Below, piece by piece: positions 17,629 to 45,310 of a stretch of DNA of 63,683 bases. The DNA comes from a virus. The translations under genes and the position numbers were made by a program. The first letter of the stretch is position 1. Each line of letters starts with the position of its first letter. Below the pieces are notes generated by a model that saw only the letters and a program-made list of their open reading frames with translations, was not told the origin of the DNA and made no database searches. The stretch spans positions 1 through 63,683 of IMG/VR virus record IMGVR_UViG_3300021420_000031, one strand, 5' to 3'.

Positions 17629-18248
17629 AGTATTTTAAGACTTACCTGTTTGTCGCCGCCGGGCTGGTTGCCGCCGGGACCGTATACGCCCAGACGATAT
17701 ACCAGACCAAGACCTCCCTTGATGGAACGGAATATCTTCCGGTCGCAGTTTCGGGTGGGACGCCGGTCAAAGGCTTGTACGCAACGACAGCCCAGATCAA
17801 AACCTATGTTGGCTCAGCCGCGAGCGGCCTTTCGGGCATGACGCTCGGGCAAGTTCCGATCGCCGCAACCGCTTCCACGGTTACGTCGAGCAAGCCAACC
17901 GGTACGACCGGCAACAGCACGATCATCCAAACGGGTTCTGGCGGAACGGTAGATCCAACGATTTTGCCGGCGGCCTCATCGGGAACTTCGGGGGCAGCCC
18001 GTGGCGACGGAACCACGATTACGACAGGAGCTGGCGGTGTGCTGACGGCGACCGGCGTCACTCCGGCGCTAACTATCCCGACAAGTTCGATCGCGACCCT
18101 TGGGACGACGTGTACGTCGGGACAGACCGGACTCGTGTATCTCGTGACAGATGCGGCGGCCGTTCCGGTCTACAACGCAATTGTAGCTGGCTCGGGGACG
18201 ACCGTGTTGCTCGCCCTTTGTAACGGGACGAACTGGGTCAACCATTAA
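17625..18248 (+). CDS. Exported Thr/Gly-rich protein inside the adaptor cluster, 207 aa
   Basis: A clear Sec signal peptide (MKYFKTYLFVAAGLVAAGTV, cleavage after YAQ) is followed by a repetitive Thr/Ser/Gly protein with fibre-like text (GLYATTAQIKTYVG, then GDGTTITTGAGGVLTATG) and a C-terminal globular part with two Cys (TCTSGQTGLVYLVTDAAAV). It is coupled to adaptor paralogue 4 by ATGA and seven bases from paralogue 5. A signal peptide on a gene within the virion connector region is unusual and links it to the exported set at 29-44 kb. Confidence 0.75.
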   Translation: MKYFKTYLFVAAGLVAAGTVYAQTIYQTKTSLDGTEYLPVAVSGGTPVKGLYATTAQIKTYVGSAASGLSGMTLGQVPIAATASTVTSSKPTGTTGNSTIIQTGSGGTVDPTILPAASSGTSGAARGDGTTITTGAGGVLTATGVTPALTIPTSSIATLGTTCTSGQTGLVYLVTDAAAVPVYNAIVAGSGTTVLLALCNGTNWVNH

Positions 18249-28344: not shown

Positions 28345-28577
28345 GTCGCCCGAAGACGATCGGTAAGCAGTTGGAGGATCTTGCGCGCGACATTCTGGGG
28401 ATGGCCGCGCTCTCGGAGACCCCGTTATCCGACAAATTAGAAGCGTTCAAGATCGTCACGACCTATCACATCGGCGTAATCAAAACGGCGAAGAACCTGC
28501 CGCCAGACGAGCCGGAGGGCGGATCGTTCGATCGGCTACGGACGGGCCTTCGGGCCGTAGGAGATAAAGATGCGTAG
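28341..28577 (+). CDS. Hypothetical small protein, 78 aa
   Basis: ATG 28341 overlaps the previous stop. Helical acidic protein (KQLEDLARDILGMAALSETP). Position just before a holin-like gene. Function unknown. Confidence 0.7.
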   Translation: MSRPKTIGKQLEDLARDILGMAALSETPLSDKLEAFKIVTTYHIGVIKTAKNLPPDEPEGGSFDRLRTGLRAVGDKDA

Positions 28578-28881
28578 TGCGCGGCTTACGCCGGTTGAAG
28601 TTGGTGACGAGAATCTGATCGGGCAAGAGCCCGAGCCTCCGGTATCGCCGCCGACAAATCACGCGGCGAATGTGCTGACCAGTCTGCTCTTTGCCAGCAT
28701 GCGGGCGTTGTCGCAGCGGGCGGTCATCGCTCTTAGCAACCTGTTCATGGCGGCGTCGGCCGCTTCAGCTTGGTGGCTTTGGTACGTGACCATGCCGGCC
28801 CCGACGGTCCCGCAACTGGTCGGCCTGACCCTGTACGCGGGGTTCATCCTTGCGCTCAACTTTATGCTTCGGAGGAAGTGA
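28570..28881 (+). CDS. Two-pass membrane protein, possible holin, 103 aa
   Basis: GGAGATAAAG precedes the ATG. Cytoplasmic acidic N-terminus, then two hydrophobic helices (IALSNLFMAASAASAWWLWY and LVGLTLYAGFILALNFMLRR) and a basic end. Size and topology suit a class II type holin, but there is a second two-pass candidate at 47150, and this one lies far from the endolysin. Confidence 0.65.
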   Translation: MRSARLTPVEVGDENLIGQEPEPPVSPPTNHAANVLTSLLFASMRALSQRAVIALSNLFMAASAASAWWLWYVTMPAPTVPQLVGLTLYAGFILALNFMLRRK

Positions 28882-29161: not shown

Positions 29162-29767
29162 ATGTTGCTGTTCGCTCGCATAGGCATTCTAGTTGCCGCC
29201 TGTTTGGTTTACGCGCCGACGGTGCGAGCGCAGAGCTATCCGGTCTATCAAACCGGGATAACCAGTCGTGGTCACATGACGATGTGGACCGATAACGCCC
29301 ACGTCGGGGATGCCGGCGGCGCCCTAAACGGCAAGATACAGGTGCTCGGGGTCACCCCATTGCACCCTAACCAGCCCGTCGCACCGTTCTGCATCAACGA
29401 CACGTTCATTTCCAATCCGGCGGGCTATCGCGAGATTTGCATCCGTTCAGACGCGCTCGACGGCGGCGGGGAACTCACCTATGCCGCATTCGGCGGAGCG
29501 GCGGACCTTCCATTCACCATGCAGTCGGCGAACAAGCTCGTGGTGACTTCGGGCAATCAGCAAGTCGCGATGCAGAACCTGCCGCAGACTGTCGCCGGCG
29601 ATGTCCCGGTGTGCATCAATCCGGTCACTGGGCAGTTGTTTCAAGCATCCAACGTGGACCGCACGATCCTGCTGACCGATGACGCCAACTCCAAATATCT
29701 GACCGACGATTCAGGGTCGACATACCTGACCGCCACCATCCCTGCCGGGAGCTGTATCCAGCAATGA
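29162..29767 (+). CDS. Exported adhesin-like protein A, 201 aa (paralogue of 31557)
   Basis: Sec signal peptide MLLFARIGILVAACLVYAPT with cleavage after VRA-Q. The mature protein shares a domain with the gene at 31557: YPVYQTGITSRGH, HVGDAGG, APFCINDTFISNPAGY and a small beta region. It ends in short repeats (ILLTDDANSKYLTDDSGSTY). First gene of the exported cluster; its start abuts the basic protein stop. Probably a surface or receptor-binding component. Confidence 0.75.
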   Translation: MLLFARIGILVAACLVYAPTVRAQSYPVYQTGITSRGHMTMWTDNAHVGDAGGALNGKIQVLGVTPLHPNQPVAPFCINDTFISNPAGYREICIRSDALDGGGELTYAAFGGAADLPFTMQSANKLVVTSGNQQVAMQNLPQTVAGDVPVCINPVTGQLFQASNVDRTILLTDDANSKYLTDDSGSTYLTATIPAGSCIQQ

Positions 29768-31185
29768 TCCGATATGTTTTGGCGGCGGTTTGTTTCCTTT
29801 GGGGCGCATCGGCGGCGATCGCGCAATGCCCCGGTTCTGCGTCTCCGTGCGAGCCGTACTCGACCTTCGTCAATTCGGTCTTGCAGGCTACTACGACCAA
29901 CACAACCGACCGCTCGGCTTATGTGCATGGCGCGACAACCCAGTATGTCCCCCCAGGTCCACCGTTCAACCTTACGATCAATGCCGCCGCCGGCGCTCCG
30001 ACCGTCATCGCCAACACGCCGCTCAATGGCGCCTATATTTCCAGCGGCGGTTCAAATGTTGTGTGGTGTCCAGCATTCAATTTTGGGTGTCCGGTCCCAG
30101 GAGATCCGGCCACAATAACTGCCCAATATGCTTCTGTAGTAACGACGCACGGTGCTGCGAATTACCAAGAAAATGGCGTCATGAATGTTATGTTCGACGT
30201 TACTGGACAGATAAATTTGTGGCAGGCATCCACTTCTTATTCTGCTGGAGCATATGTTAGCGGGACTGGATATAACGTCTATGTAGAGACAGTTGCGTCC
30301 TGCACCTCTGGCAGTTCCGACCCTAGTGGAACCGGAAACGGCATCGTGGATGGCTCGTGTCTGTGGAATTATGAGGGCCCATCGCAATCGACGGCCAAAC
30401 AATCGGCGGGCTTCAGCATTTTGCCGGGGCCGGGCGGAGGGCCGGCGTGGGGTGCCGCCATTGCCAACTATATCCAGGCCGGATGGAACAGCGAGGGCGC
30501 ATTCGGTGTCGAGATTGATCTAACGAATGGCACGACTATCGATCCCACGGTCGGGTCGATCCACACTATGGACACGCTTTACCTTGGGGGTGTCACCGGA
30601 ACGAATCCGATTACGACATTAATTTACGCGAGCCCAAGTCCGAATGGAACAGTCTTTGGGTCACATAATGGCTTATGGATTAATGGACCATATGCCGTCA
30701 AAGACTACGATATATACCTTACGACTCAACATTCTTCTATCGGGATTTATACCGCTGGTAATTTCGGACAATCCGTGGTTAATGATGGCTCTACTGCGCC
30801 GACGTGGGCCGATATTACGGGAACATATCCTACATCGATGATGTATTTATTCCCAACTAGCACCCCGGCTGATATTACGATGGCTGGTCCTGGCGCTCAA
30901 ACGGGGCTATATGCTCCAGGACACTTCTCGCTCTCCGTTATAGCAGACGATGTAGCTACGACAGCAGAAACCGGAGAGGATTGGGCGGGAACTTATAGCA
31001 CCGCCGTCATTTACATGGGAGTTGCATCGGCACCAAATATGATTATAGCGCCGAACTTCTTCCTCTCGAATGTTGGCAAAGTAACCGCTGCGAGTTACGC
31101 CGCTGGTGCGTCCAATGGTGTAAGCTGTTCAGGCTCTCCGAGCGGCTCATTCGCGAGCGTCAACGGGATCGTCACTCATTGTTGA
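29764..31185 (+). CDS. Exported beta-rich adhesin-like protein, 473 aa
   Basis: Signal peptide MIRYVLAAVCFLWGASAAIA-Q. The mature part is Thr/Gly/Asn-rich and beta-strand-like throughout, with text such as GNGIVDGSCLWNYEGPSQST and IYLTTQHSSIGIYTAGNFGQ that resembles phage spike or fibre domains. Codon use is more AT-rich than its neighbours in several stretches, suggesting recent acquisition. No catalytic motif seen. Confidence 0.7.
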   Translation: MIRYVLAAVCFLWGASAAIAQCPGSASPCEPYSTFVNSVLQATTTNTTDRSAYVHGATTQYVPPGPPFNLTINAAAGAPTVIANTPLNGAYISSGGSNVVWCPAFNFGCPVPGDPATITAQYASVVTTHGAANYQENGVMNVMFDVTGQINLWQASTSYSAGAYVSGTGYNVYVETVASCTSGSSDPSGTGNGIVDGSCLWNYEGPSQSTAKQSAGFSILPGPGGGPAWGAAIANYIQAGWNSEGAFGVEIDLTNGTTIDPTVGSIHTMDTLYLGGVTGTNPITTLIYASPSPNGTVFGSHNGLWINGPYAVKDYDIYLTTQHSSIGIYTAGNFGQSVVNDGSTAPTWADITGTYPTSMMYLFPTSTPADITMAGPGAQTGLYAPGHFSLSVIADDVATTAETGEDWAGTYSTAVIYMGVASAPNMIIAPNFFLSNVGKVTAASYAAGASNGVSCSGSPSGSFASVNGIVTHC

Positions 31186-31195
31186 GGTAATCGTC

Positions 31196-31537
31196 ATGCG
31201 CTTCTTCATGCCGCCATTTTTTGTTGTGGCATTGCTCTCTGTTGCGGCACTCGGGCAATCTATATCTGCGCCCCCCAAGCAGCTACGGCCACCTCCGCCG
31301 CCCCCAACTCTGGAGAAGCCGAAGGAACCCCTGCCGATACCGCCTTCCCATGCCTCGGCAGCGCAACCGGCCATGTCGCCGTCGGCGCAAGCCGCCATGA
31401 CGAATGCGGCGATGGCGGGAATGCGGTCGGAGGGACAGGCTCTCGCGACAAGCACCATCGAGCTTGCCGCCAAGAATGACTGGTGGGCGAAGTGCGTGAC
31501 TGAACCGAAATGCGTTTCGTGGGTGAATCAGAAATAA
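31196..31537 (+). CDS. Exported proline-rich protein, 113 aa
   Basis: Signal peptide MRFFMPPFFVVALLSVAALG-Q, then a Pro/Lys/Glu-rich linker (LRPPPPPPTLEKPKEPLPIP) like those that span the periplasm in TonB-type proteins, an Ala/Met-rich helix and a C-terminal CVTEPKCVSWV with two Cys. Could be an exported linker or periplasmic partner of the neighbouring adhesins. Confidence 0.65.
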   Translation: MRFFMPPFFVVALLSVAALGQSISAPPKQLRPPPPPPTLEKPKEPLPIPPSHASAAQPAMSPSAQAAMTNAAMAGMRSEGQALATSTIELAAKNDWWAKCVTEPKCVSWVNQK

Positions 31538-31556
31538 CTGACGTCGGCAAGAAAAA

Positions 31557-32138
31557 ATGATCGTGTCTCGTCTGATAGTAGCCCTGTTCCTAGTGATCGT
31601 AGCGCCAACGCTGGCGGCTGCGCAGCAGAACCAGCCTGTCTATCAGAGCGGATCGATTGCACGCGGGCGAGCAGGATACTGGATCAACAATGGCGTCATC
31701 GGCGATGCGGGACCGGCTAACGCCGGGAACATCACCGAACTCGGCCTCACGAACACCGGAACGCCGTTCTGCATCAACGATCAGTTGACGACGAACCCGA
31801 CCGGCTATCATCAGTTTTGTTTGGGCGCGCTCGCGCTCGGTGGCGGCCTAATGAACTATGGGGCATATAACGGCGCCACGCCGCTGCCATTCACCGTAAG
31901 CACGGGCGGCCCGCTGATCTTCAATTCGGCGATCAACGACATAGAGGCGAAGAACCTGCCGCTTGGGCTCGGCGGCGCGGTGCAGCTTTGTATCAGTCCG
32001 ACGACCGGGGTGCTCTCCATTGCGACGGGCGGCGCGGTGTGCGGAGGGAACACGCCGCCACCGCAGTATGTCCTGCTCCAAGGCGGGGCCGGATACATTC
32101 TCCTCCAGGGTGGAGCAGGAAGGATTCTCCTACAATGA
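31557..32138 (+). CDS. Exported adhesin-like protein B, 193 aa (paralogue of 29162)
   Basis: Signal peptide MIVSRLIVALFLVIVAPTLA, cleavage at AAAQ. Shares with 29162 the strings QPVYQSGSIARGR, VIGDAGPANAG and TPFCINDQLTTNPTGYHQFC. It ends in a ten-residue repeat (YVLLQGGAGYILLQGGAGRI). Stop overlaps the start of the tail fibre gene, so the two are probably made together. Confidence 0.75.
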   Translation: MIVSRLIVALFLVIVAPTLAAAQQNQPVYQSGSIARGRAGYWINNGVIGDAGPANAGNITELGLTNTGTPFCINDQLTTNPTGYHQFCLGALALGGGLMNYGAYNGATPLPFTVSTGGPLIFNSAINDIEAKNLPLGLGGAVQLCISPTTGVLSIATGGAVCGGNTPPPQYVLLQGGAGYILLQGGAGRILLQ

Positions 32139-35100
32139 AGCGCTTTATCGCCTTTCTGCTCGCCATGTGGCCGGCGCTCGCTCTGGCCGATGCCACGGTG
32201 CCGTCCTTGGCTCCAGCCACCTCGCTGTTCGGGGCATCGACCTATCTTGCGCAAACCGGGGCAGCGAACAACCAGCTCGGCTTCCTGACCTCGACTTTCT
32301 GTCTCAACTCGGGCGCTTTGACGATTTGCCCCTCCGCGATCTCGGGGTCGATGCTCGGCCCTGGCGCGGCATTAAGCAACATCGGCGCTGGCTCTATTTC
32401 GTCGTCCTATCTGGCCCCGACCGGGGTAACGCCGGGATCATACACCAATCTCAACGCAACGATCGGCGCTGACGGGCGGATCACGGGAGCGTCGAATGGT
32501 TCCGGTGGCGGTGGTGGCGGGACGCCGGGAGGCTCAAACGGGCAGGTCCAGTATAACAACTCCGGCGCGTTCGGAGGCTTCACTTTCAGCGGCGGCGTCA
32601 CGGTAAATCCTTCGACCGGCGTTGCCGTGCTGGGCAATCCTGGGCCGTCAACCCTTGGCGGCATCGAAAGTGTTGCGCAAGTCGGGGGAGAGTTCGTTCA
32701 ATACATTGATACGTCAGGCGTGCCACACCTCGCGACGCCATCAGGCGGAGGGAATGTCACTGGCCCTGGATCGTCGGTAAACAACGATCTCGCGTGCTTC
32801 AATGGGACGAGCGGCACGCTGTTGGCGGACTGCGGCATCCTCTCGACGAATGTCGTAACTCCGACAAGCACCAACACGCTGACTAACAAGTCGATATCGG
32901 CTCCTGAAGTCAATTCGGGCAACTTAGCCGCCGCTCAAATGTCGGCCAACCTGTCGGCAGCGATTGATGCGGCAGTTGGCTCGACGCAAGGCGATATCGC
33001 CTATCGCAACGCAACCGTATGGACAGTTCTGCCGCCCGGCACGACTGGCCAATTCCTAGAGACGCAGGGCGCGTCAGCTAACCCCTTGTGGGGAACGCCA
33101 TCGGGCAGCGGCAACATGACCGGCTCCGGGGCCGCCACGACGGGCGATGTCATCTGCGGCAACAACACCAGTACGCCCCTCAACACCGCCGTCGACTGCG
33201 GCTTCGCACCGAACGCGGTCGATGATCCGACGACAACAGGGATCTTCACCGCAGCGCAATGGAATAACGGCGATGAGCTCGTCGTTACGACGGCCTCGCA
33301 AACGCTTACAGCTCCGGCAAGTTCTACGCTTGCCAGGAACGGCAACGTCTTCATCCATTCGATCGCCGCTTCGACGCTCGCGGCAAATGCCGCCGACACG
33401 ATCACCTATTGGAACGGCTCGGCCGTAACCACAACGAGCACCGGCGGCTCGATTTCGCTTGGGGCTGGTGCGCTGGTTCAAGTGACTTCAAAGGTGTCCG
33501 GCAACCTTAAGGTGGCGGGTAACATCACTGGTGGCGGGTCATCAGCCTTCAGCGCGCTAACCGGCAGCACGAACACCACAGCGGCGATGGTTGTGGGGTC
33601 GGGCGCGACGCTAGGTTTTTCAGGTTCAGGGACGATCGCCGCGACCTCTGCCCCGGTATCGGGGCTCACCGGCGTCGGAACCGGGGTTCTGACCGCGCTC
33701 GGCGTAAATGTGGGAAGCGCTGGCGCGTTCGTCGTAAATGGCGGCGCGCTAGGGACACCCTCATCCGGGACGCTGACGAACGCGACTGGTTTGCCGGCCG
33801 CTTCGGTGCTGGCGGGTGCGCTCGCAAACGGCATGACCGGCACGACGCAAACGGTTGGAGACAATACGACCAAACTCGCGACCGACGCATTCGTCATCGC
33901 CAATACTGGTGGGGCAGTTAGCATTACCTCACTGACTCCAAATCTAGTTCTGTCTCCAAGCACTATCACCGGCACTGGTACTATTGCATCCACTTCCCCC
34001 ACGACCGACCAATCCGGCGGAAGCACAGCCATTGTCACTGGATACAATACCGAACTAGTCTATGTGGGCGGAGGGTTCACTTACACGCTCGCCCAAGCCG
34101 GAACCACAGGATTCACTTCCGGTTGGGGAACCTGTCTACTCAACACCGCCGCCTCAGGTAATGCCACCATCACTGCCACAACCTCGACCTTCAAGGGCGC
34201 GAGCAATACCACGAGCCTAACCCTTGCACCGGGCGATTGGTCCTGCCCGACCAGCGATGGGACGAATTATGCCACAGCTGTAGGGCACTATGCTGGAGGT
34301 GGTGGCTCGGTCTCGGTGACGGCAGGGACGCCAAATATAGTCATCACCCCTTCACCCGGCACTGGAACTTTTACTGTCGGCGCCACTGCCGCCGCGTCCG
34401 CACATAGTGGTAATGCCTCAACCTACACCTATCAGTCGAGCGACATCGCCACCACAGTCAATCGTGGCTATACCGGGGGGGCAATGGCCGACACATTGCC
34501 GAATGTCTCGGCATCCGGGTTCGGAGCCGGGGCCTCGCTTTCTGTCTGCAATATCAGCGCCAGCCAGAACGATGTGATCACCGTGAACGCGCCCAGCACG
34601 ATAGGCGGGGCGTCATCGGTGACTGTGGGACCAAATACCTGCATGGCGATCGCCGATACCGACGGGACCAACTATACTGTCCCCGCCGCTGCTCCGACCA
34701 TTTCGGGACTGGTTAACGGACAGTTGGCTATTGCTAGCGGCACGGCTTCGCTAGGTTCTAGCGTGGCCTACAGCAATTCCGGTACGGCCAGCGATGTCGT
34801 ACAAGCGACCAGTGGGGGCGTCATCGTCAATTCACTGATCAATTTCAGCCAGGAGAAATCGGCTGGCTGGCCGGCTGGCGTGAACCCCAACAACATCGTC
34901 GTTTTCACCGCCGCTCAGGCCGAAACAGTTACCGCTATCGTTGGTCGCAATGAAGTGACCGTCGGCGCGACAGCTACGCTCACCGTAAACAAGGCCCCGA
35001 GCGGCACGCCGTGTGCATCCGGGACGGCGATCTCATCCTCGTTCAATGCAAACACAAGCGCCACAACGAACCAGAGCATCATATCCGGGACACCGACTCT

Positions 35101-35200
35101 CGCGGCCGGTGACTCGGTTTGCTTCCAGACTACCGGCGGATCGAACTGGGGATCGGGAACGGGAATTGGCACGATCACAATTTCGGTTAAGCCGTCATGA
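32135..35200 (+). CDS. Tail fibre protein with N-terminal signal peptide, 1021 aa
   Basis: MKRFIAFLLAMWPALALADA is a classical signal peptide. It is followed by repeats that mark phage fibres: GSNGQVQYNNSGAFGG, LGTPSSGTLTNATGLPAAS and TTKLATDAFVIAN. The C-terminal 150 residues (QEKSAGWPAGVNPNNIVVFT) form a probable receptor-binding head. Start chosen at ATG 32135 (coupled by ATGA), because only this gives the leader. A real fibre sequence behind a cleavable leader is the strongest sign that the exported cluster is tail-related. Confidence 0.85.
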   Translation: MKRFIAFLLAMWPALALADATVPSLAPATSLFGASTYLAQTGAANNQLGFLTSTFCLNSGALTICPSAISGSMLGPGAALSNIGAGSISSSYLAPTGVTPGSYTNLNATIGADGRITGASNGSGGGGGGTPGGSNGQVQYNNSGAFGGFTFSGGVTVNPSTGVAVLGNPGPSTLGGIESVAQVGGEFVQYIDTSGVPHLATPSGGGNVTGPGSSVNNDLACFNGTSGTLLADCGILSTNVVTPTSTNTLTNKSISAPEVNSGNLAAAQMSANLSAAIDAAVGSTQGDIAYRNATVWTVLPPGTTGQFLETQGASANPLWGTPSGSGNMTGSGAATTGDVICGNNTSTPLNTAVDCGFAPNAVDDPTTTGIFTAAQWNNGDELVVTTASQTLTAPASSTLARNGNVFIHSIAASTLAANAADTITYWNGSAVTTTSTGGSISLGAGALVQVTSKVSGNLKVAGNITGGGSSAFSALTGSTNTTAAMVVGSGATLGFSGSGTIAATSAPVSGLTGVGTGVLTALGVNVGSAGAFVVNGGALGTPSSGTLTNATGLPAASVLAGALANGMTGTTQTVGDNTTKLATDAFVIANTGGAVSITSLTPNLVLSPSTITGTGTIASTSPTTDQSGGSTAIVTGYNTELVYVGGGFTYTLAQAGTTGFTSGWGTCLLNTAASGNATITATTSTFKGASNTTSLTLAPGDWSCPTSDGTNYATAVGHYAGGGGSVSVTAGTPNIVITPSPGTGTFTVGATAAASAHSGNASTYTYQSSDIATTVNRGYTGGAMADTLPNVSASGFGAGASLSVCNISASQNDVITVNAPSTIGGASSVTVGPNTCMAIADTDGTNYTVPAAAPTISGLVNGQLAIASGTASLGSSVAYSNSGTASDVVQATSGGVIVNSLINFSQEKSAGWPAGVNPNNIVVFTAAQAETVTAIVGRNEVTVGATATLTVNKAPSGTPCASGTAISSSFNANTSATTNQSIISGTPTLAAGDSVCFQTTGGSNWGSGTGIGTITISVKPS

Positions 35201-35349
35201 TGCGAGCATGGATGTTGATCGCGATCTCGCTCGCCTCGCTTGCCTGCGGCGGCTGGCTCATCGGGGCCGGTAGCAATGCAGTGCCCCCCACCACGGCAGT
35301 TCACGGAATTATTTTGCAGCGGATCGTGCTCGCGGGAGTGAAATTATGA
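35197..35349 (+). CDS. Small exported or membrane peptide, 50 aa
   Basis: MMRAWMLIAISLASLACGGW: a hydrophobic leader ending in LASLAC-G, which could be a lipobox, then 25 more residues. It overlaps both neighbours by four bases, so translation is coupled. Function unknown; perhaps an assembly or membrane-tether factor for the flanking exported proteins. Confidence 0.6.
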   Translation: MMRAWMLIAISLASLACGGWLIGAGSNAVPPTTAVHGIILQRIVLAGVKL

Positions 35350-36734
35350 GGAAAATCCTTCTAGCCTCGGCGGCGCTTGTTCTGAGTGCGACCGGCGCGC
35401 TTGCGGCGGGGACATGGCTCGGTGCCGATATTCAGGATACGGGTGCGGTCAACGAGGAAATCGCCAACGCATCGTCAACCGGCACGACGCTGAATACCCT
35501 GTCCAAGTATGTCAACGGGCAAGCGGTAATCCTAGCGACCTCGGATCTCAATCTGGCCCGAGGCGTGTGCATGTCCGGATGCGGCACGACCGGAACAGCG
35601 GTGATTGCATACTCCGGCAATGCCCAGCTGCTGATCGACGCCGCACATACGCCGACTGCTGGGCATTTCGTCACGATTTCATCGACCAATGCCGGGTACG
35701 GCAGCGATACCGGGGCCGCCACCTGCCCGACCGGGGCCAGCCAAGTTGTCGGGATCGTGCAAAGTAATGTCTCGGGCAGCATCTACAATGTCAAGCTGGG
35801 GACATTCGGTTGCACCGCGTCACTGTCGGCTGGGCAATCGTCCATCACCGAATACATCTCGCACGGCACCAGCACTTACACCGCCCCGACGAACGCGACG
35901 ATCTTCCATGTGATCGTTTGTGGCGCGGCGGGCGGTGGTTCATCGGGTGTCCCCCAGGCGTCCGGTACAAGTGCTAACGGTGGCAGCGGCGGAGGCACGG
36001 GCTCATGCGTGGAATCGTACCTGACGGCCGCACAAATGGGCGCGACGGCTACTGTTGTTGCCGGTCAGGGAGGCGCCGGCGGGGGCACCTCGACGACGTT
36101 GAATGTCGGTAACAATGGCAGTGACGGAACTAACACGACTCTCACCCCCAGCGGCTCTGGCCCAGTCTTGACCGGATATCATGGTGGTGGCGGCGGCACA
36201 GCAACGACTGGGAAAGGCGCTAGTTGTGCGGGTGCAGCAACGGGCACCACGGCACCAACTACTACCTGTGTTGGTGCTGCGGCGAACGCTTTTGGATATC
36301 CAAATTTTGCCGGGACAAATGGTTTTGGCGGGTCAACGACCGCAGGAACAGGGGCAACTACAGTAAGTGTGAATTTTGCTGGCGCTAGTGCCAGTTCCGG
36401 TGGCGGCATCAGCACGTCAACCGCCTCGGCAGGAGGTGCCGGTGTGGCAACATTAGCCGAGAACTCTGTCCCCGCTGGCGGAACGTCAGGCACTACGACA
36501 GGTGGAACCGGTGGGAATGGCGTAAGCCCATCGACCTGGATTCCGTGGCTGGGTGGTGGGTCCTCAGCGGGCGGCGGCGGTTCTTGCAATAGCAATCCAT
36601 GCACCGGCGGCCCCGCCGGCACCGGTGCGCTGCTGGCAGGCGGTTCTGGCGGCGGGGCATCGGTCGGCACCTCTGGTTCCGGCGCGGGTGCGGCCGGTGG
36701 TGACGGTGCTGTATGGATCGAAGCGAAGTTCTAA
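35346..36734 (+). CDS. Exported glycine-rich adhesin-like protein, 462 aa
   Basis: Signal peptide MRKILLASAALVLSATGALA. Residues about 20-160 form a Thr/Ala-rich domain. From YTAPTNATIFHVIVCGAAGG (about residue 178) on, the protein is a glycine-rich domain with GGGG clusters ending in DGAVWIEAKF, like the glycine-rich receptor-binding domains of tail adhesins. No enzyme motif. Confidence 0.75.
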   Translation: MRKILLASAALVLSATGALAAGTWLGADIQDTGAVNEEIANASSTGTTLNTLSKYVNGQAVILATSDLNLARGVCMSGCGTTGTAVIAYSGNAQLLIDAAHTPTAGHFVTISSTNAGYGSDTGAATCPTGASQVVGIVQSNVSGSIYNVKLGTFGCTASLSAGQSSITEYISHGTSTYTAPTNATIFHVIVCGAAGGGSSGVPQASGTSANGGSGGGTGSCVESYLTAAQMGATATVVAGQGGAGGGTSTTLNVGNNGSDGTNTTLTPSGSGPVLTGYHGGGGGTATTGKGASCAGAATGTTAPTTTCVGAAANAFGYPNFAGTNGFGGSTTAGTGATTVSVNFAGASASSGGGISTSTASAGGAGVATLAENSVPAGGTSGTTTGGTGGNGVSPSTWIPWLGGGSSAGGGGSCNSNPCTGGPAGTGALLAGGSGGGASVGTSGSGAGAAGGDGAVWIEAKF

Positions 36735-36735
36735 C

Positions 36736-37512
36736 ATGCGTCTCGCTGGACTAGTTTTCGGCCTATTGTTGGCGAGCCTTCCTGCGCTTGCCCAGGTCAC
36801 TAACGGCAGCGCGGCGGGATACAGCATTCCCGCCGCGAGTTGTTCGGGTGGGGTGTGCTCTTCGGCCTCAATATCCTGGCGGCAACCTACCTGCGCCAAT
36901 ACTGGCAGTGGAGCTAACGGCGGGATTTGGCCGGGCATTGGCGGTATCTCCCCAGACACGACACTGATCCAAATCGGCGTTCGGTGTGTTACGAGCCAGT
37001 TCGTCGCGACGACTTATGCTCCCTTTTATCAGCTGGTTCCGGCGGCAGCAGTAAACATATCTCAAACGGTGTCGCCGGGCGATATTATGATCGCCTCGGT
37101 GGTATGCCTGACAAGCTGCACGACACCGAATGTATCTCAGACATGGACACTCACGCTCCAAGATGTTACCCAAAATTGGACCTACACAAATACGCCGGTC
37201 ACATATACGTCGTCGCTCGCCACCGCCGATTATTTCGTGGAGGCTCCGACGATCCTTGGCATTCAGCCGATGGCGAATGTCGGGAGCGTGGCTTTCGTGT
37301 CCGCTAAGGTGAATGGTAGCCCGGCAACCTTCACAACCGGGGAGCAGTTCATCATGAACAACACCAACGGCCAGACGGTCAATCCCTCCGCTCCATCCGG
37401 GAGCGCATTCAATGCCTGTTGGGGCCAGCCAAGTGCAACCTACACTACCTGCACCGCTGCCGGTACTCTTGCAGTGGCTAAGGGGACGGGTGCATGGCTG
37501 GTGGGGCGCTAA
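36736..37512 (+). CDS. Exported glutamic endopeptidase-like protein (peptidase family G1), 258 aa
   Basis: Signal peptide MRLAGLVFGLLLASLPALA-Q. The mature protein follows the eqolisin fold order: WPGIGG (residues 65-70), LIQIGVR with Gln79, YAPFYQLVP (94-102), VSPGDIMIASV (112-122) and ADYFVEAP with Glu169. In scytalidoglutamic peptidase the dyad is Gln53 in ILQTGF and Glu136 in AEFIIE, so both catalytic residues are conserved at similar spacing. One conserved Asp of the WVGIDG loop is Gly here. Family members are acid proteases, known mainly from fungi and also found in bacteria. Activity is inferred. It lies between a glycine-rich adhesin and a glycosidase-like gene. Confidence 0.8.
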   Translation: MRLAGLVFGLLLASLPALAQVTNGSAAGYSIPAASCSGGVCSSASISWRQPTCANTGSGANGGIWPGIGGISPDTTLIQIGVRCVTSQFVATTYAPFYQLVPAAAVNISQTVSPGDIMIASVVCLTSCTTPNVSQTWTLTLQDVTQNWTYTNTPVTYTSSLATADYFVEAPTILGIQPMANVGSVAFVSAKVNGSPATFTTGEQFIMNNTNGQTVNPSAPSGSAFNACWGQPSATYTTCTAAGTLAVAKGTGAWLVGR

Positions 37513-37516
37513 TAAT

Positions 37517-39661
37517 ATGATTGGTCGAAGATTAATACCGGCTGCACTACTGATATTGGCTCTGTGCGGCTTCCTTGGCTTCCACGGTGGTATTGGCACC
37601 ACAACCGGCGCCTGCGACACGATTACGGGAGGATGCCCAGCCGCACACAGCATGTCGCAAAAGCTTGTGTCGTCGTATTCCGGCAATGCCTTCGAGCTGA
37701 TCAACCCGACCCCGGCTTGGACCGGGACAGGCTCGATCTCCGGGACGACCCTAACCGTGGCCAGCACCGCGACAGGGACGATGGCCAACGGCCTCGCCCT
37801 CTCGGCCGCAGGATCGGGTGTGACCCCGGGAGTGGTTCCCGTTACCTACACCTCGGGATGCTCTGGCTCGACTTGCACCGTGAGCCAGTCACAGACCGCG
37901 GCATCGGTCACGAGCGCCTACTCGGTACTCGATGTTGGCTTCCTCGGCAGCGGCGCCTGGAACGAGAGTACCTGGCAATCCTTCTGCTATGGCGTTACCT
38001 GCCTAGTCGAGAAGATCTTCAACCAAGGTTCGGGTGGCACCGCCAACGATCTAATCGCGTCGCAGATCACTGGCGGCGCGGCCAACATGCTCAATTGCAC
38101 CGCGAGCATCGTGGTTTGCGCGCCGCTGTTCGTCATTGACACAGCGACCGACACGCCGATGGCAATCACGACAGCTTCAATTATGGGCCTGTTCGGCGAT
38201 GCTTATGTCGGCCACAGCTCTTCTGGCTTCCCGGCGGCCGGAGCGAATGCTTCGGTCATGTTCTCGGGGCTCAACATTTACGCCTCGAATTGCTGTGGTG
38301 GACTCTACGGCTTCACCGAGAACAATCCGGCGTCGATCATCGCTGGCGGCATGCTAGCGGTCGGGTTTGCCAACGGCACCGGCTCGGGAGGTGCGGTCAA
38401 CTGTCAAGCCGCTAACCTCATCTGCTTCTTAGCTGACACCGAGACCGGCGGCGATCCGATCGCGGGGCCGTGGCAGGTCTACGACAGCGCCGCCGAGCAG
38501 CGTGGTATTTGGGAAATAAACTATACGAGCGGCACCAACACCGCGTCTGGTTCCTATGCCGATACCCAGCTTTACAGCGTCTCGCCTCCTAATTCCACCG
38601 CATCGACCCGCCAGACATGGCTCCGCATAGGGGCTGGCGGCGACCGGTCTTGGCTCCCAGAGGCATTCAGCGACGGCTTGATTACAGCCGATGTGACCAC
38701 CACGCCGCACACGGCGGCCTATAACGCCATGTCCAGCTTCTACTCGGGGCGATCAGCGTCGGCTTGCCGAGGGCCGCTCGATTTTACTTGGTACATGCCG
38801 ACTTCGGGCGTCGGTGCGGCGGGAAGCGGACTCGCAACCTCACTGTTCACCATCGGCGACGGCATGGGCGCATGGGGCACTCGACCGCTCAGTGCTTGGT
38901 ACACGGGTCCGATCATAACCCTTCAAAACAGCGCTGGCTCCGGCAGCATCCAGACATTCTCGGCGGTCGGCTGCGATCTCGACCCGGCGGTGACATCGTT
39001 TTGCGCGAGCGGCTGCCTGGTCAATACGCTCTACAGCCAGGCATGGGACACCGCCGGCACGACGCACGGCAACGTCCGAAACACTGGCTACGACATGAGC
39101 GCATCAGGCTCGACCCGGCCGTCCCTGACCCTGGCGTCGCTCGGCGGCCAGCCGACGATCCATTTCAGCGGCGCACAGGAACTGTGCACGCCGACGCTCG
39201 GCACTGCGGGACAGGTGCGCGGCACCTATCCGGCGGAGCTTGCCGTGGTCGCCCGGCGCACCAGCGGCTCGGCGTTGAGCGCCGTGTGGTCGACTAGCTC
39301 GATCGACCCAGGCATCGGCTTCGACACCGCAAACAACGCTTTCTTCTGGTGGGGAATTCAGCAGGACGAGGCAGCGAACGACAATCTGTGGCATAGCCTG
39401 ATCATACACGCGATCGGAGCCACCGGCGGCACGGCTTATGTCGACGGCTCGGCGAACTCGGTATCGTTCACGACCGGCGCTGATCCATTCCCGGCCAATT
39501 ACTGCATCGGCGGCCGTCCCGGCGGCACCAGCGAGTTGACCGGCGATGTCGCTGAAGTCGTCTTGACCTATAACGCCCTCTTCAATGGCTCAGTGGCCAA
39601 CAACGCCGCCTCGATCCTATCGAATGATCAAACATTTTACGGCGTAACTTTCCCGCATTAA
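37517..39661 (+). CDS. Exported GH54-like alpha-L-arabinofuranosidase with ConA-like C-terminus, 714 aa
   Basis: Hydrophobic leader MIGRRLIPAALLILALCGFL. Residues 31-66 and 140-410 match the GH54 catalytic domain: AAHSMSQKLVSSYSGNAFEL, FC-x4-C (157, 162), vicinal Cys259-Cys260 in NCCGG, DTE with Glu309 (nucleophile position) and IGAGGD with Asp376 (acid/base position). The spacing resembles fungal AkaB (Cys176-Cys177, Glu221, Asp297). A GSISGTTLTV module (about 70-135) is inserted. A second, shorter GH54-like start (SFCASGCLVNTLYSQ) leads into a ConA/LamG-like domain (about 560-714). Predicted to trim arabinose-containing glycans outside the cytoplasm. Confidence 0.8.
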   Translation: MIGRRLIPAALLILALCGFLGFHGGIGTTTGACDTITGGCPAAHSMSQKLVSSYSGNAFELINPTPAWTGTGSISGTTLTVASTATGTMANGLALSAAGSGVTPGVVPVTYTSGCSGSTCTVSQSQTAASVTSAYSVLDVGFLGSGAWNESTWQSFCYGVTCLVEKIFNQGSGGTANDLIASQITGGAANMLNCTASIVVCAPLFVIDTATDTPMAITTASIMGLFGDAYVGHSSSGFPAAGANASVMFSGLNIYASNCCGGLYGFTENNPASIIAGGMLAVGFANGTGSGGAVNCQAANLICFLADTETGGDPIAGPWQVYDSAAEQRGIWEINYTSGTNTASGSYADTQLYSVSPPNSTASTRQTWLRIGAGGDRSWLPEAFSDGLITADVTTTPHTAAYNAMSSFYSGRSASACRGPLDFTWYMPTSGVGAAGSGLATSLFTIGDGMGAWGTRPLSAWYTGPIITLQNSAGSGSIQTFSAVGCDLDPAVTSFCASGCLVNTLYSQAWDTAGTTHGNVRNTGYDMSASGSTRPSLTLASLGGQPTIHFSGAQELCTPTLGTAGQVRGTYPAELAVVARRTSGSALSAVWSTSSIDPGIGFDTANNAFFWWGIQQDEAANDNLWHSLIIHAIGATGGTAYVDGSANSVSFTTGADPFPANYCIGGRPGGTSELTGDVAEVVLTYNALFNGSVANNAASILSNDQTFYGVTFPH

Positions 39662-39665
39662 GGCC

Positions 39666-42600
39666 ATGAGAAAGATCCTCGCGCTCGCCTTCACGCTGCT
39701 ACTGATCGGGATCATCCCGGCTGACGCGCTCCGCTTGCGCGGCGGCGGCGCACTGGTTTCTGGCGGCGGCCAAACAATCGCCAGCATCAGCCTGTCGAAC
39801 AGCAGCTTCACCGGCGGGTCGCCTTCCGGAACTGTAGTGGGTGCGATCAGCACCACGATGTCACCGGCTTCGCCCGCTTTCTCCGGCTCTTATTCGGTGA
39901 CGGGGACGAATGCGGCAAGTTTTCAGGTAGTCGGGAGTAACTTGGAGACCAACGGCGTCGTCGCGGCGGGCTCCTATTCGATCAACATTGTTGCTACCCA
40001 AGCGGGGATCTCCAACTCGCCATTCAGCAGCCCGAAGACGATCACCGGCAACGCCCAGACGATCGCTAGCGTCAACATCTCGAATACGACGTACACGCCG
40101 AACTCCGCGAATGCCGTGGTCGGCACGCTCACGGTCACGATGTCACCCTCGACCCCGGTATCGACAGCGGCACTGACTGTCACAGGCGCGAACTCGGGAG
40201 GCTTTCATCTCGTCGGGGCCGGCTGCGCAAACATCAGCACGGGGACCTGCACAGTCGAGACCAACTCGGGCGGCACGACGGGCTCGGGACCGTTCACCGA
40301 TGTTAATTTCGTCGCGACACAAGCGAGCGCATCGAACTCGCCGCAATCGATCTCGCCATCGCTCTCCGGCACGGGAGGAGCGGGAACCGTCGTCGATACG
40401 ATGACCTTCCCTAATATCGGTTCTGGGACGACGCCGGGCTCGGCAATTCCGAAACATGCGATGCTGAATGTGCCTCCTGGAGCTGTCCCAGCTGGCATGA
40501 TCGCGGTTCCAACAGTCGCGAGTTCCGCGATCCCCTATCAATACGATTGCGCCGCCGAGCCATCTACGACTGCTTTCACGGGGTCAATCGCGAGCGGCGT
40601 ACTAAGCGGCGCGACAGTGCCGCTGGTCATCGGCAGCACGGTCACCGGCGCTGGCGTCACCTCCGGGACCGTCATCAGCGCGATCGTTACCGCGGCCAGC
40701 AACACCTATACCGTGACACCATCGCAGACCGTCGCCAGCACGACCATCACCGCGACATTCGGCGGCTGCAATTTGTGGCCGGACGGCAGTTTGAAGAACG
40801 CCGCGATCTCGATGTTCCTGCCGACCCTGGCCTCTGCGGCAGCCGAGCAGGTAACCTGGACGACGACCTCCGGCAGTCTTGCCTCGGGCGGTCTCGGCGT
40901 GACCCCGACCACTGTCGCCGCCGCAAGCGACTATCGAGTTTACGCGACGAACGTCAACACGATATGGGTTAACAACATTCAGATGCCGACCGGTATCGCC
41001 CAGGTCGGGTGCGGGCCGACAGCGGGATCGCTTCCCTCGCCAGGCGGCTGCGTGATCCGCCTTCAGGCCGGCTCGGCCGGGACGCACTATGGCTATATCG
41101 GGAATAATTGTTCCACCAATCCGGCTGTAAATGGCATTCCACCCTGCATTACCGCGTCCGACAACACCGTGACCGTGGCCTCGACCACCGGGGCGCCTAC
41201 CGTGGTAACCTGCAATGTAACACCTTGCCCACTTGGCACGGTCTCAGGCGCGCTAGTCGTCGACACGACCACGCCGAGCAATATCCCAAACAACACCGTC
41301 ATTACTAGCTCGCCGGTCTTCAGCGGTGGTAATACATTCACACTGTCATCAAATGCAACCATCACTAATGGTGATACTCTCCGGCTTCTTTACCCGGTCA
41401 ATGGGTGCACCAACGCCGGCTTTTATTTTACGGCGTTGGATGGTACGACTTCGCTGCCAACCGGCGTCACCGTGCCATCTTATGGGACGGGTTCGGCCTG
41501 TGCGGTAACCGGCTCCGGTAACGAGAAGTTCTTCTTCAACGACTCTCTCAACCTCTATGGCTCAAATCAGCCGCCGACATGCGCGGCAGCGGGCGGATCG
41601 GCATCGTTTACCGGGTCTTACTCCTCCGGCACCCTGACCACGAGCGCGGTTACGGGTGCGCTCTCCAAGGGCCAAATCGTCTTCGACTCGGTTGGTGCCC
41701 ATGCGCTGGTGACGGCCGGTTCAGGATCGTCCTGGTCTGTCAATGCGGCTCTTACCAACGGCGCGATGACTGCCAGGGTGCCGGTCTGTATCTACGCCAA
41801 CGGCAATGGCAGCTCGACCTCTGGCATGTACGGGTTGCGGCTCTATGGACCGCTGGTCGATACTTCGACTGGCGCGCAAGACCCAAACTTCGAGAGGGTG
41901 TGGGGATATATAGAATATTGGGTAAACGGCAGCGCTCTAGTAACGACGCGCGCCATCGCGGGGATCGACAATTCGGTCTACTTGCCGTCAGGCACATCAA
42001 CCCAGGTGCAGTGGCCTTCAGAGACGATGGATCTGGACTTCACCAACGGCACGACGCCCGGTGGTGCGGGGGAGATTCGCGGTGCAGCGCAAGGCACCGG
42101 CATGTGGACCCACCTGACGACAGAAGCGCCAACGGTGTTCTATTCGGCAGATCCCGCACTTAGCGGCCCGATCGGGATCTCAGGGACCGCTGACTGGCTC
42201 GGCCCGACCTCGGGCACATTCAACCTCGCGAACAGCGAAGCTTGGAACTCGGTCCAGATGTCACGTACCGGGACAGACCTGACGTACTGGCACGGCAACC
42301 ACGCGCATCAGCCGTTGGCCCCCGCTGCTGGTGTAGCGCCGCTGGTTATAAACAGTTCAACAGTCGGCACTTACTATGGCCTCGCCACCTATCTCGGCTA
42401 CTACAAGCCCTATGACGCACCGTTCATGGATTCAAATTCCTCGACATCATGGAACAATGGTGGCGAGCATTTCTTCTTGTCGCCCGACAGCGCCCACGGC
42501 GCTTACCTCTATTACGCTTGGGCCGATGGCGCGAGCGACCTTGGAATGTCATGGCTACAACAACTCCGCATCTCGTCCCTGGAACTTCCGGGGCAAGCCG

Positions 42601-44411
42601 CAGGCATCCACGAAGACGTGACCGGCCACGCACTTAACCTCGATTATGTGTGGACTACCAAGCCGACAGCCCTTACCGATCCGGTGGAACTGTTCTCGCA
42701 TGTATTATGCAATAACGGGTTCGATCCGCAGACAACCATGTGCAACAACATCAACCAGAGCGGGCAGCGTAAGACGCAGACGCCGCCGAGCGGTACTGCG
42801 AATGACGCCTCGCACTGGCCGATCGGGAATGTCGGCTACATAACTTCTATTGAGGGTGAACGCTGGCAGGTCGATTTGCTGGCCCTAGAAGCTCAAGACG
42901 TTGAGCAGACTGAGTATGACGACTACAAGCGCGTCGCCAACCTTGCCGGAAGGAATTGGTATGGGCTGATGCAAGACTTCGTGGGCGAGAACCGCGTCAT
43001 GGGCTGGGCGCCCGCACAGGTCAGCGACGCGGTTCAGTACATGCCGGGTAGCGAGCCTGAAGCGCAATATCAGTTCCACACTATCGCCAATTGGTATGAC
43101 GCCCGCGCAGCTTGGTACACATATACGGGGACCTTCTCGTCCGGCGTCAATTATCCTTCGCCCACCGTATCAACTCTGACCGGGACCAAGCACTATGATT
43201 ACTCGGCTCAGGGAATAGGAACGCAGCCTTATGATTTGATCGATCAGCCGCAAGGCCAATCGAACATGAGCATCTCTGTGTTCGAGCAAGGCTACGAGGC
43301 TATGTCGATGGACAAGTCGGTGATGGAATTGGACCATTCCGTCCCGAGCGTCGATACCGTGGCGACCTATTTTATCGACAATATGATTGTAGCTAGCGAG
43401 GCCGAGAACTCTTGTATTTATAATTCGTTGTCGTACGCGCCCGGTGAGGGCGTCATGACTCCACAGTCGAATCAGCAGCAGACGCTCCCTGGCGCTAATG
43501 GCTTGAGCGCTGGTTGGGACGCGACCGATCTCAATAATCCCCAGGCGGGGAATATGTCCGTCCTCGGGGCTGCGACTCTGGAGCTTGAGGTTTATAACGG
43601 TTCGACGTTAGTCACGGCGGTTGCCGGCCCGGGCGGCGGTGATGGCCTGCCTGCCCAGAACCTCTCTGCGCAAATCACAACGACCGGGACTTCGCCGGCT
43701 GGGACAACGATTAACATCCCAGCCGGGAGCGCGGCTAATGCATTCCCCAAGGGGATCATCAACGATATAACCAACGGTACGGGACCGTTCTTCATTCAAT
43801 CGATTGCGTCGACGACGATCACCCTGATGTCGAGCACGCCGACGACGGGCATTGGGTCGGGAGATGTGCTCTATGTCTCGCGAGTGGACACCTACCCTGA
43901 TTACCCGATAAGTGCGGGTAATATCTATAAGTCTGGCAGTGTTGTGTTCTTTACCGCCGCCGATGGCCAGGAAGAGACCAACCAGGATATAGCGCCACAT
44001 GATTTCCCGGTGCCGACCACGCCACCCGGCGCCGTGCTTGAGGGCAAAGCCTATATCTGGTGCCAAGACCCATCGGGCGCTTGGGCCGGAACAATCAATC
44101 CATACGGCACAAATTGCGCCTCGCCAGCCCCGATCACCTTCGCCGGCAACAAGGCGTATAATGCGATGTGGATTGTCAATGACGTGTGTCCGGCTCGCTC
44201 GATAGGAACGTGGAATACCTATGGTGACTATCAGTCTCCGACATCGAGACTCGCTGAGTATTGGGCCACTATCGAGGGCCGGATCACAACGGTTGGGGCT
44301 AATACCGCTCGCACGGCGGCCGAGACCCAGATGTCACCGAGCATGACGCCGCTGAGCACGACATTCGGCGGCGGCAACAATCCGCGCTACAATTACGACA
44401 ATCACTACTGA
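39666..44411 (+). CDS. Giant exported multidomain protein, 1581 aa
   Basis: Signal peptide MRKILALAFTLLLIGIIPAD. Two Ig/cadherin-like repeats follow (about residues 35-125 and 130-230, each with TIASISLSNSSFT-like strands). Then come modules of the FTGSIASGVLSG type, interrupted at NLWPDGSLKNAAISMF. The C-terminal about 700 residues (from VWGYIEYWVNGSALVTTRAI) are rich in Trp, His and Asp (GEHFFLSPDSAHGAYLYYAW; EDVTGHALNLDYVW) and look like a large carbohydrate-active domain, but I cannot name the family. Likely the main surface or capsule-acting protein. No frame interruption. Confidence 0.75.
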   Translation: MRKILALAFTLLLIGIIPADALRLRGGGALVSGGGQTIASISLSNSSFTGGSPSGTVVGAISTTMSPASPAFSGSYSVTGTNAASFQVVGSNLETNGVVAAGSYSINIVATQAGISNSPFSSPKTITGNAQTIASVNISNTTYTPNSANAVVGTLTVTMSPSTPVSTAALTVTGANSGGFHLVGAGCANISTGTCTVETNSGGTTGSGPFTDVNFVATQASASNSPQSISPSLSGTGGAGTVVDTMTFPNIGSGTTPGSAIPKHAMLNVPPGAVPAGMIAVPTVASSAIPYQYDCAAEPSTTAFTGSIASGVLSGATVPLVIGSTVTGAGVTSGTVISAIVTAASNTYTVTPSQTVASTTITATFGGCNLWPDGSLKNAAISMFLPTLASAAAEQVTWTTTSGSLASGGLGVTPTTVAAASDYRVYATNVNTIWVNNIQMPTGIAQVGCGPTAGSLPSPGGCVIRLQAGSAGTHYGYIGNNCSTNPAVNGIPPCITASDNTVTVASTTGAPTVVTCNVTPCPLGTVSGALVVDTTTPSNIPNNTVITSSPVFSGGNTFTLSSNATITNGDTLRLLYPVNGCTNAGFYFTALDGTTSLPTGVTVPSYGTGSACAVTGSGNEKFFFNDSLNLYGSNQPPTCAAAGGSASFTGSYSSGTLTTSAVTGALSKGQIVFDSVGAHALVTAGSGSSWSVNAALTNGAMTARVPVCIYANGNGSSTSGMYGLRLYGPLVDTSTGAQDPNFERVWGYIEYWVNGSALVTTRAIAGIDNSVYLPSGTSTQVQWPSETMDLDFTNGTTPGGAGEIRGAAQGTGMWTHLTTEAPTVFYSADPALSGPIGISGTADWLGPTSGTFNLANSEAWNSVQMSRTGTDLTYWHGNHAHQPLAPAAGVAPLVINSSTVGTYYGLATYLGYYKPYDAPFMDSNSSTSWNNGGEHFFLSPDSAHGAYLYYAWADGASDLGMSWLQQLRISSLELPGQAAGIHEDVTGHALNLDYVWTTKPTALTDPVELFSHVLCNNGFDPQTTMCNNINQSGQRKTQTPPSGTANDASHWPIGNVGYITSIEGERWQVDLLALEAQDVEQTEYDDYKRVANLAGRNWYGLMQDFVGENRVMGWAPAQVSDAVQYMPGSEPEAQYQFHTIANWYDARAAWYTYTGTFSSGVNYPSPTVSTLTGTKHYDYSAQGIGTQPYDLIDQPQGQSNMSISVFEQGYEAMSMDKSVMELDHSVPSVDTVATYFIDNMIVASEAENSCIYNSLSYAPGEGVMTPQSNQQQTLPGANGLSAGWDATDLNNPQAGNMSVLGAATLELEVYNGSTLVTAVAGPGGGDGLPAQNLSAQITTTGTSPAGTTINIPAGSAANAFPKGIINDITNGTGPFFIQSIASTTITLMSSTPTTGIGSGDVLYVSRVDTYPDYPISAGNIYKSGSVVFFTAADGQEETNQDIAPHDFPVPTTPPGAVLEGKAYIWCQDPSGAWAGTINPYGTNCASPAPITFAGNKAYNAMWIVNDVCPARSIGTWNTYGDYQSPTSRLAEYWATIEGRITTVGANTARTAAETQMSPSMTPLSTTFGGGNNPRYNYDNHY

Positions 44412-44420
44412 GCTAACGCT

Positions 44421-44615
44421 ATGATCTACATATGGCTTATCATGGCGCTCGCGGTCGGGCCGAGCCACGGCCCGAATGCTCATCAGGAGTCAGGATTAGC
44501 CTATCCTGCCGGGGGGTATGAGTGGCGGGAGTTCTCATCGCCGGAGGAATGCAACCGCCATCGGCAGACCGATGCGCAGCAATGCGTGAAGGTCGCGGTC
44601 CGGTTGTCCCCCTGA
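44421..44615 (+). CDS. Small exported protein, 64 aa
   Basis: Hydrophobic leader MIYIWLIMALAVGPSHGPNA, then a short domain with two Cys (EECNRHRQTDAQQCVKVAV), which may form a disulphide. Last gene of the exported cluster, 48 bases before the lysin gene. Confidence 0.6.
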   Translation: MIYIWLIMALAVGPSHGPNAHQESGLAYPAGGYEWREFSSPEECNRHRQTDAQQCVKVAVRLSP

Positions 44616-44662
44616 TCTCGCAAGGGTTGCTATCGCGGCGTGTCTATCGTATGGGGGATGGT

Positions 44663-45310
44663 ATGAAAGTTGTCCCTGCACGTGCCGGTGCGGTCGGCTT
44701 CGACACGGATTCGCCGCTGACCGCATCGCTGTGCGAAAGCCTCATCGGCCAGGGATACGAATTCGCGATCCGGTATGTCAGCCATACCCAGCCGGAAGCC
44801 GGAGACCTGTCACCAGCCGAAGTCCAGGCGATCCTGGGTTCGGGGCTGGCGCTTATGGTTGTCGTGCATTCACCGGCTCCGGGTTGGGCACCACGCGGCG
44901 TCGCCGGGGCCGAGCACGCGACATGGGCAGTCAGCAACCTGGAAGGCGCCGGACTGCGCGCGGTCGGCGCGATGACGGTCTGGTGCGACCTCGAAGGCGT
45001 GCTGCCCGGCACGCCCGCCAGCGACATCATCGATTACGTCAACACCTGGACCGTGGGCATCAGGGCGGCAGGCTATCAGCCGGGCCTCTATGTAGGCTAT
45101 GACGCCTTCCTGACCGGCTCGCAGCTTTATGTAGATCTGTACCTGGCCCGGTATTGGAAGAGCGCCTCTGCCGTACCCACCCCGGCGCTGCGCGGGTTCT
45201 GCATGACACAGATGCTTGGTGCCGGGCCGATGGTCGCCGCGGTGCAAATCGACCGCGACGTGATCCAAGCCGATCGGCTCGGGGGGCTTCCGATGTGGCT
45301 GGTCGCGTGA
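44663..45310 (+). CDS. Endolysin-type glycoside hydrolase-like protein (DUF1906), 215 aa
   Basis: GFDTDSPLTASLCESLIGQG, AIRYV, LSPAEVQAILGSGLALMVVV, a TVWCDLEGVLPG Asp/Glu motif and AGYQPGLYVGYDAF follow the strand order of the DUF1906 (Rv2525c-like) TIM-barrel family, used as a cell wall hydrolase domain by some phages. ATG 44663 is preferred because GGGGATGGT precedes it. No signal peptide, so a holin would be needed. It starts the lysis region. Confidence 0.75.
   Translation: MKVVPARAGAVGFDTDSPLTASLCESLIGQGYEFAIRYVSHTQPEAGDLSPAEVQAILGSGLALMVVVHSPAPGWAPRGVAGAEHATWAVSNLEGAGLRAVGAMTVWCDLEGVLPGTPASDIIDYVNTWTVGIRAAGYQPGLYVGYDAFLTGSQLYVDLYLARYWKSASAVPTPALRGFCMTQMLGAGPMVAAVQIDRDVIQADRLGGLPMWLVA

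Follow-up and report, generated by a model that had tools for sequence, protein, structure and literature searches.

Export leaders on the spike- and fibre-like proteins of a branch of uncultured tailed phages

The leadered gene array

The window analysed here is the whole of a linear IMG/VR virus record (IMGVR_UViG_3300021420_000031, 63,683 bp), in which TerL (6880), a portal-like gene (9446), the gene for the major capsid protein (MCP; 12857), tail genes and a gene for a tape-measure-type protein (24728) lie upstream of a tight operon on the + strand (29162-44411). This operon, the subject of our analysis, consists of nine solid genes, each beginning with a leader of the signal-peptidase-I type. 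Its intergenic gaps range from -4 to +19 nt, and four of its starts overlap the preceding stop in the ATGA manner, as in translational coupling, which supports those four starts.

The first gene (29162-29767) encodes a 201-residue protein with what we call docking module A (QxG...GH...W...DAG) and 4 cysteines in its mature part; it is 39% identical across 160 residues to the 193-residue product of 31557-32138, which carries the same module, short C-terminal LLQGGAG repeats and likewise 4 mature cysteines. Between them lie 29764-31185, whose start overlaps the preceding stop (473 residues, 8 mature cysteines, no confident fold in the predicted structure at a pLDDT confidence score of 33), and 31196-31537, encoding a proline-rich protein of 113 residues with 2 cysteines. 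They are followed by a 1021-residue fibre-like repeat protein (32135-35200; 12 mature cysteines), which shows local homology to gene 28508 of the nearest relative, G001, and by a glycine-rich fibre-like protein of 462 residues (35346-36734; 10 mature cysteines) with a minor-tail match (phrog_754, 5e-4) and a Gly_rich_2 match below the cut-off. The 258-residue product of 36736-37512 (8 mature cysteines) belongs to the Peptidase_A4 (eqolisin, glutamic peptidase) family, with a Pfam profile match at 9.5e-12 and 45.2 bits against a curated cut-off of 22.3; we know of no characterised phage member of this family. The last two genes encode proteins of 714 residues (37517-39661; 18 cysteines past the leader) and 1581 residues (39666-44411; 20 mature cysteines). 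The latter is a variable relative of G001 36803 (25-34% identity), and a direct search of viral contigs returned no relatives of either. All nine genes, like the three discussed next, are on the + strand.

A sequence-only reading of this stretch had listed eleven consecutive leadered genes. Nine of them stand, whereas two are doubtful as genes: a 50-residue open reading frame that amounts to a leader or membrane peptide only (35197-35349), and one of 64 residues whose leader-like start contains no basic residue (44421-44615). The same list overlooked a leadered 207-residue protein within the tail-gene cluster (17625-18248; leader MKYFKTYLFVAAGLVAAGTVYA, predicted to be cut before QT; 2 mature cysteines), which has a leadered counterpart at the same place in G001, with two large leadered genes nearby in G041.

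Leaders were scored with a von Heijne prokaryotic weight matrix combined with h-region and charge filters, and the scores were read only against internal controls. A leader was called at all 11 listed starts, as the sequence-only reading had claimed, as opposed to 3 of 51 other called genes (Fisher p=7e-10). The filter was passed by 10 of 291 spurious reading frames (about 3%) and by 176 of 1800 order-shuffled N-termini (10%). The hallmarks of Sec export and signal peptidase I, namely a basic n-region, a hydrophobic core and small residues at -3 and -1, are present, more weakly in 37517 and 31196. Cleavage sites had been described as mostly A-x-A, which holds for seven leaders with a clear site, typically ALA before Q (29162, 29764, 31557, 32135, 35346, 36736 and 39666), but not for 31196 and 37517, where the site is poor or ambiguous, with no clear AxA in the latter, despite a good hydrophobic core. 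Among the leadered proteins of the clade described below, 67 of 95 have Q or A next to the predicted site on its mature side. An artefact of start choice is ruled out by the controls and the stop-start overlaps, and misassembled host DNA by the linkage of array and phage genes across many independent contigs.

Clade-wide conservation and cysteine parity

The nearest relative of the window, G001, has a TerL 83%, an MCP 96% and a tape-measure protein 77% identical to those of the window. It carries an equivalent leadered array, the proteins of which are mostly unrelated to the window's or only locally 25-51% identical, and the same pattern recurs at the same place in more distant relatives of 57-66 kb and in some shorter contigs. 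When 36 genomes are placed on an MCP tree, 27 of the 29 members of one fully supported clade have leadered genes, as against none of the 7 genomes of its sister group, which have ordinary leaderless fibres behind a baseplate gene; the leaders are thus conserved in relatives, a point that the sequence-only reading had named for checking. The two exceptions (G039 and G040, about 36 kb) form one nested pair in which the docking motif (e.g. QTGPITPGHVAIWTAPGVVQDGG) directly follows the start codon, without a leader. Of the three complete motif proteins in this pair, two contain no cysteine and the third has 8 in 1465 residues. Leaders therefore persist while the proteins behind them are exchanged, and the motif persists where leaders are absent.

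A second line of evidence comes from cysteine parity. Bacteria that possess Dsb systems tend to export proteins with even numbers of cysteines (PMC7678975, citing Dutton 2008). Counted over non-redundant clade sets of mature proteins with at least two cysteines, 82 of 86 leadered proteins are even (binomial p=3e-20), compared with 113 of 203 leaderless proteins from the same contigs (Fisher p=9e-13) and with 9 of 15 in a hand-listed set of leaderless fibres (p=6e-4 versus the leadered set). All 11 leadered proteins of the window in this count are even. Two of the four odd cases (G013 5596 and G014 49302) are probably metabolic enzymes with falsely called leaders, and the other two (L139 894 and L248 16473) have, by eye, twin-arginine-like leaders; their odd counts would agree with export by Tat after folding. 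Such leaders (ISRRRLL, LPRRKFL) occur in a few array proteins (L139:894-2642, L248:16473-17210 and, on the reverse complement, L253 6502-8253). Cysteine density is also higher in the leadered window proteins (1.80%, versus 0.60% in the upstream virion genes). Enrichment alone is weakened as evidence of export, as two leaderless spikes (L142, L152) are cysteine-rich too, with even counts, and we therefore relied on parity rather than density.

Taken together, the leader statistics, the leaders kept across the clade despite protein swaps and the even cysteine counts strongly support the proposal of the sequence-only reading that a set of adhesins and hydrolases is exported, and export of the array proteins by Sec is in our judgement very probable. 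We propose that in this branch of uncultured tailed phages nearly all spike and fibre proteins carry an export leader, and the cysteine counts suggest that the export is real and that disulfide bonds form in these proteins beyond the cytoplasm.

Proposed tail-spike identity, precedents and rival explanations

What ties the array to tail spikes comes from relatives, where N-terminal modules are conserved and C-termini swapped, several leadered proteins match pectin-lyase or tail-fibre PHROGs, and two end in a Peptidase_S74 spike chaperone (L101:5564-6541 and L258:12699-16040). A spike of G001 matches phrog_33320, the profile of the Naesvirus tail-fibre family discussed below, at 5e-11; no window protein matches that family. 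Module A, in full QxGxxTPGHxxxWxTxGVIxDGG, is borne by leadered spikes, by leaderless spikes (L142, L152 and those of G039/G040) and by a leaderless 162-residue protein; in the window it occurs on 29162 and 31557 only, both leadered. The modular ends, the pectin-lyase matches, the S74 chaperones and the motif on leaderless spikes would all be in keeping with a tail-spike identity. The 162-residue protein (L141:3516-4004 and homologues) is beta-rich, predicted at pLDDT 78, and lies directly upstream of a leadered spike in many genomes. When its fold was searched against the PDB, nothing reached significance (best E 0.015); it weakly resembles 7eel_H, a capsid chain of cyanophage Pam1, and the cement protein of KHP40. 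Its matches in BFVD were uncharacterised phage proteins only.

Tail assembly is commonly regarded as cytoplasmic, with spikes made and attached inside the cell and receptor-binding proteins devoid of leaders. The operon described here may instead be a host-recognition cassette of tail spikes, fibres and associated hydrolases made as preproteins, which host SecYEG would move across the inner membrane and signal peptidase I would relieve of their leaders. In the oxidising periplasm they would fold, form disulfides and oligomerise, while virions would be built in the cytoplasm without spikes; at lysis the two pools would mix and the spikes dock via their conserved N-terminal modules (e.g. QxGxxTPGHxxxW). 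From the leaders, their conservation, the even cysteine counts and the modular spike-like architecture of relatives, all of which can be read from sequence, we infer that leaders are removed, that the proteins reach the periplasm and trimerise, and that they dock once the cell has lysed. The sequence-only reading had left it between release before lysis and joining of the virion outside the cytoplasm; the docking modules and S74 chaperones favour joining. The best-supported reading, based on architecture and motif sharing, is that the array supplies virion spikes which are exported and meet the particle outside the cytoplasm, and we adopt it as a tentative one. Likewise possible, and to be held with some reserve, is a two-compartment virion, in which a cytoplasmic capsid and tail would be joined at or after lysis by a periplasm-matured, disulfide-bonded spike array.

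The statement of the sequence-only reading that no such system has been described proved too strong. The GenBank records of the cultured Burkholderia phages Bcep781 and Bcep1, with one leadered fibre each, bear the note 'possible tail fiber; possible signal peptide domain', and the Naesvirus fibres as a group (Bcep781 gp49, Bcep43 gp48, Bcep1 gp51 and the BcepNY3 tail spike) resemble the window proteins in having a classic cleavable leader and an even number of cysteines in the mature part (14 in Bcep781, 4 in Bcep1). They are also like the array in that the leadered N-terminus is kept, being shared by Bcep43 and BcepNY3, while C-termini differ. Unlike the array, each is a single gene, in another tail and genome type, with no proven homology to window proteins. 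In the Shewanella phage vB_Sb_QDWS (OK094664, L261 2964-5033), the deposited start of CDS 23 lies about 270 codons late, so that the leader went unannotated; read from the upstream ATG, the gene yields a 687-residue protein with a strong leader (MIKKILLTALLVPAMALA, cut before QT), 8 mature cysteines and a spike-like C-terminal part, again as a single leadered gene. Ordinary spikes and fibres share with the array a modular build, a pectin-lyase-like domain and a place in the late tail region (e.g. BcepMigl gp58), but their N-terminal docking part and C-terminal beta-helix or S74 domain come without a leader, as in BcepMigl gp58 despite the shared pectin-lyase part, and they are usually cysteine-poor. 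Signal-arrest-release (SAR) endolysins and Rz1-type lipoproteins are phage proteins that use host Sec, but they have an uncleaved anchor or a lipobox and a lysis function, neither of which applies to array proteins. We rejected both as identities of array members, given the predicted cleavage sites in place of the uncleaved anchor and muralytic domain of SAR endolysins; a profile search found no lysozyme domain in array members. Pantoea WceF is reported to be a secreted enzyme with a phage tailspike fold (PMC7949094); here, too, that fold occurs away from a phage particle, and WceF differs from the array in being bacterial rather than phage-encoded. The open-access literature searched, which lacked the principal publication on the phages of the Bcep781 group, contained no description of exported tail spikes, and within it the multi-gene leadered array and its fixation across a clade appear to be undescribed.

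The main rival, and a real one, holds that the exported adhesins, peptidases and polysaccharide-degrading enzymes are not virion parts but reach the periplasm or the exterior by the time of lysis, where they would loosen the matrix, remove decoy receptors or alter the surface of the host. The evidence for export serves it equally, and it draws further support from the eqolisin-family peptidase, from lyase-like proteins in the arrays and from the separate leaderless tail fibres kept in three relatives (G008, G012 and G031). However, the docking motif and the S74 chaperone are traits of particle-bound spikes, the motif is also found on leaderless spikes of close relatives, the one tail fibre annotated in the neighbourhood of the Naesvirus baseplate genes is leadered, and to pass the outer membrane ahead of lysis the proteins would need a further route; free enzymes thus strike us as conceivable, if somewhat doubtful. 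That the exported proteins stay on the envelope of the infected cell, blocking superinfection or masking receptors like exclusion proteins of the lipoprotein or outer-membrane type, is improbable: leadered outer-membrane-like proteins are indeed encoded by relatives (see below), but the array is a large and hypervariable operon that directly follows late tail genes, and most of its members are repetitive fibre-like proteins and not outer-membrane barrels. Still less probable are hydrophobic helices that would act within the virion in anchoring or oligomerisation, neither exported nor cleaved. The lack of a good site in 37517 and 31196 would suit them, but the preference for Q or A after the predicted site would not, nor would the confinement of the even-cysteine signature to leadered proteins; the hand-listed leaderless fibres, even in only 9 of 15, are exposed after lysis as well. 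As to gene-start artefacts or chance hydrophobic N-termini, the pass rates of spurious and shuffled sequences speak for them, but the enrichment within the window and the recurrence in 27 clade genomes leave them a negligible probability.

Several observations weigh against the preferred reading, in which the array proteins are virion spikes. Besides the cysteine-rich leaderless spikes, these include the ordinary leaderless fibres of G008, G012 and G031, on account of which the array need not be the sole receptor-binding set. In favour of the preferred reading, no leaderless fibre was found in the window. Up to ten spikes would be many for one particle. The array proteins bear several different N-terminal modules, many have no recognisable spike domain, and those of the window have almost no database matches, only weak hits apart from 35346 and 36736. 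Profile searches of the window's own proteins found neither a beta-helix or pectin-lyase domain nor an S74 chaperone, and four array-related or neighbouring proteins had no sequence match among solved structures. Nor did we find proteomic data on the virions, or sequenced protein N-termini, for any of the phages concerned.

If the array proteins are indeed virion spikes, the last assembly step would take place outside the cytoplasm in a clade whose receptor-binding cassette is fixed as Sec preproteins. Host range would then depend on host Sec, Dsb and signal peptidase, spikes could gain stability through disulfides, and mixed particles could arise when co-infected neighbours lyse together. Cultured phages with single leadered spikes open the idea to direct test, and vB_Sb_QDWS warns that gene callers may trim such leaders; many leadered spikes may have escaped annotation as such.

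Neighbouring genes and other features

Upstream of the array, the tape-measure/ejection-type gene that served as anchor and control (24728-26782, + strand; phrog_9570, 1.1e-19) encodes a leaderless protein without cysteines. Large tape-measure/ejection-type proteins (window 24728-28344 and homologues) lack cysteine in almost all clade genomes, in sharp contrast to the array. Homologues of the 103-residue gene at 28570-28881 (+ strand) mark the upstream border of the array in many relatives. The downstream border is a leaderless Rv2525c-type glycoside-hydrolase-like protein (44522-45310, + strand; 3.1e-17), a probable lysin whose start is probably at 44663, and 45940 encodes a lipoprotein that is probably a spanin.

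Among the relatives, G008, G009, G012, G033 and G035 carry sugar-metabolism-like genes upstream of TerL, with epimerase- or transferase-like N-termini, which the window seems to lack; envelope or glycan modification is a possible role. Leadered outer-membrane-like proteins starting ADMPVKAP (L111:15472-16194, L108:14604-15314, L095:3221-3889, L252 and L258) recall outer-membrane proteins of Hyphomicrobiales and are possibly a hint at the host or an exclusion factor. A host scan of genome contigs gave no match to the docking module, and with MCP it gave three short metagenome-bin contigs assigned to phyla unrelated to one another (Acetobacteraceae, Patescibacteria and Verrucomicrobia).

No RNA families or tRNAs were found within the window. 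Both of its ends (1-95 and 63605-63683) are (CCG)n-like and of low complexity, with no exact terminal repeat, and the record probably stops at these repeats and not at the real termini of the genome.
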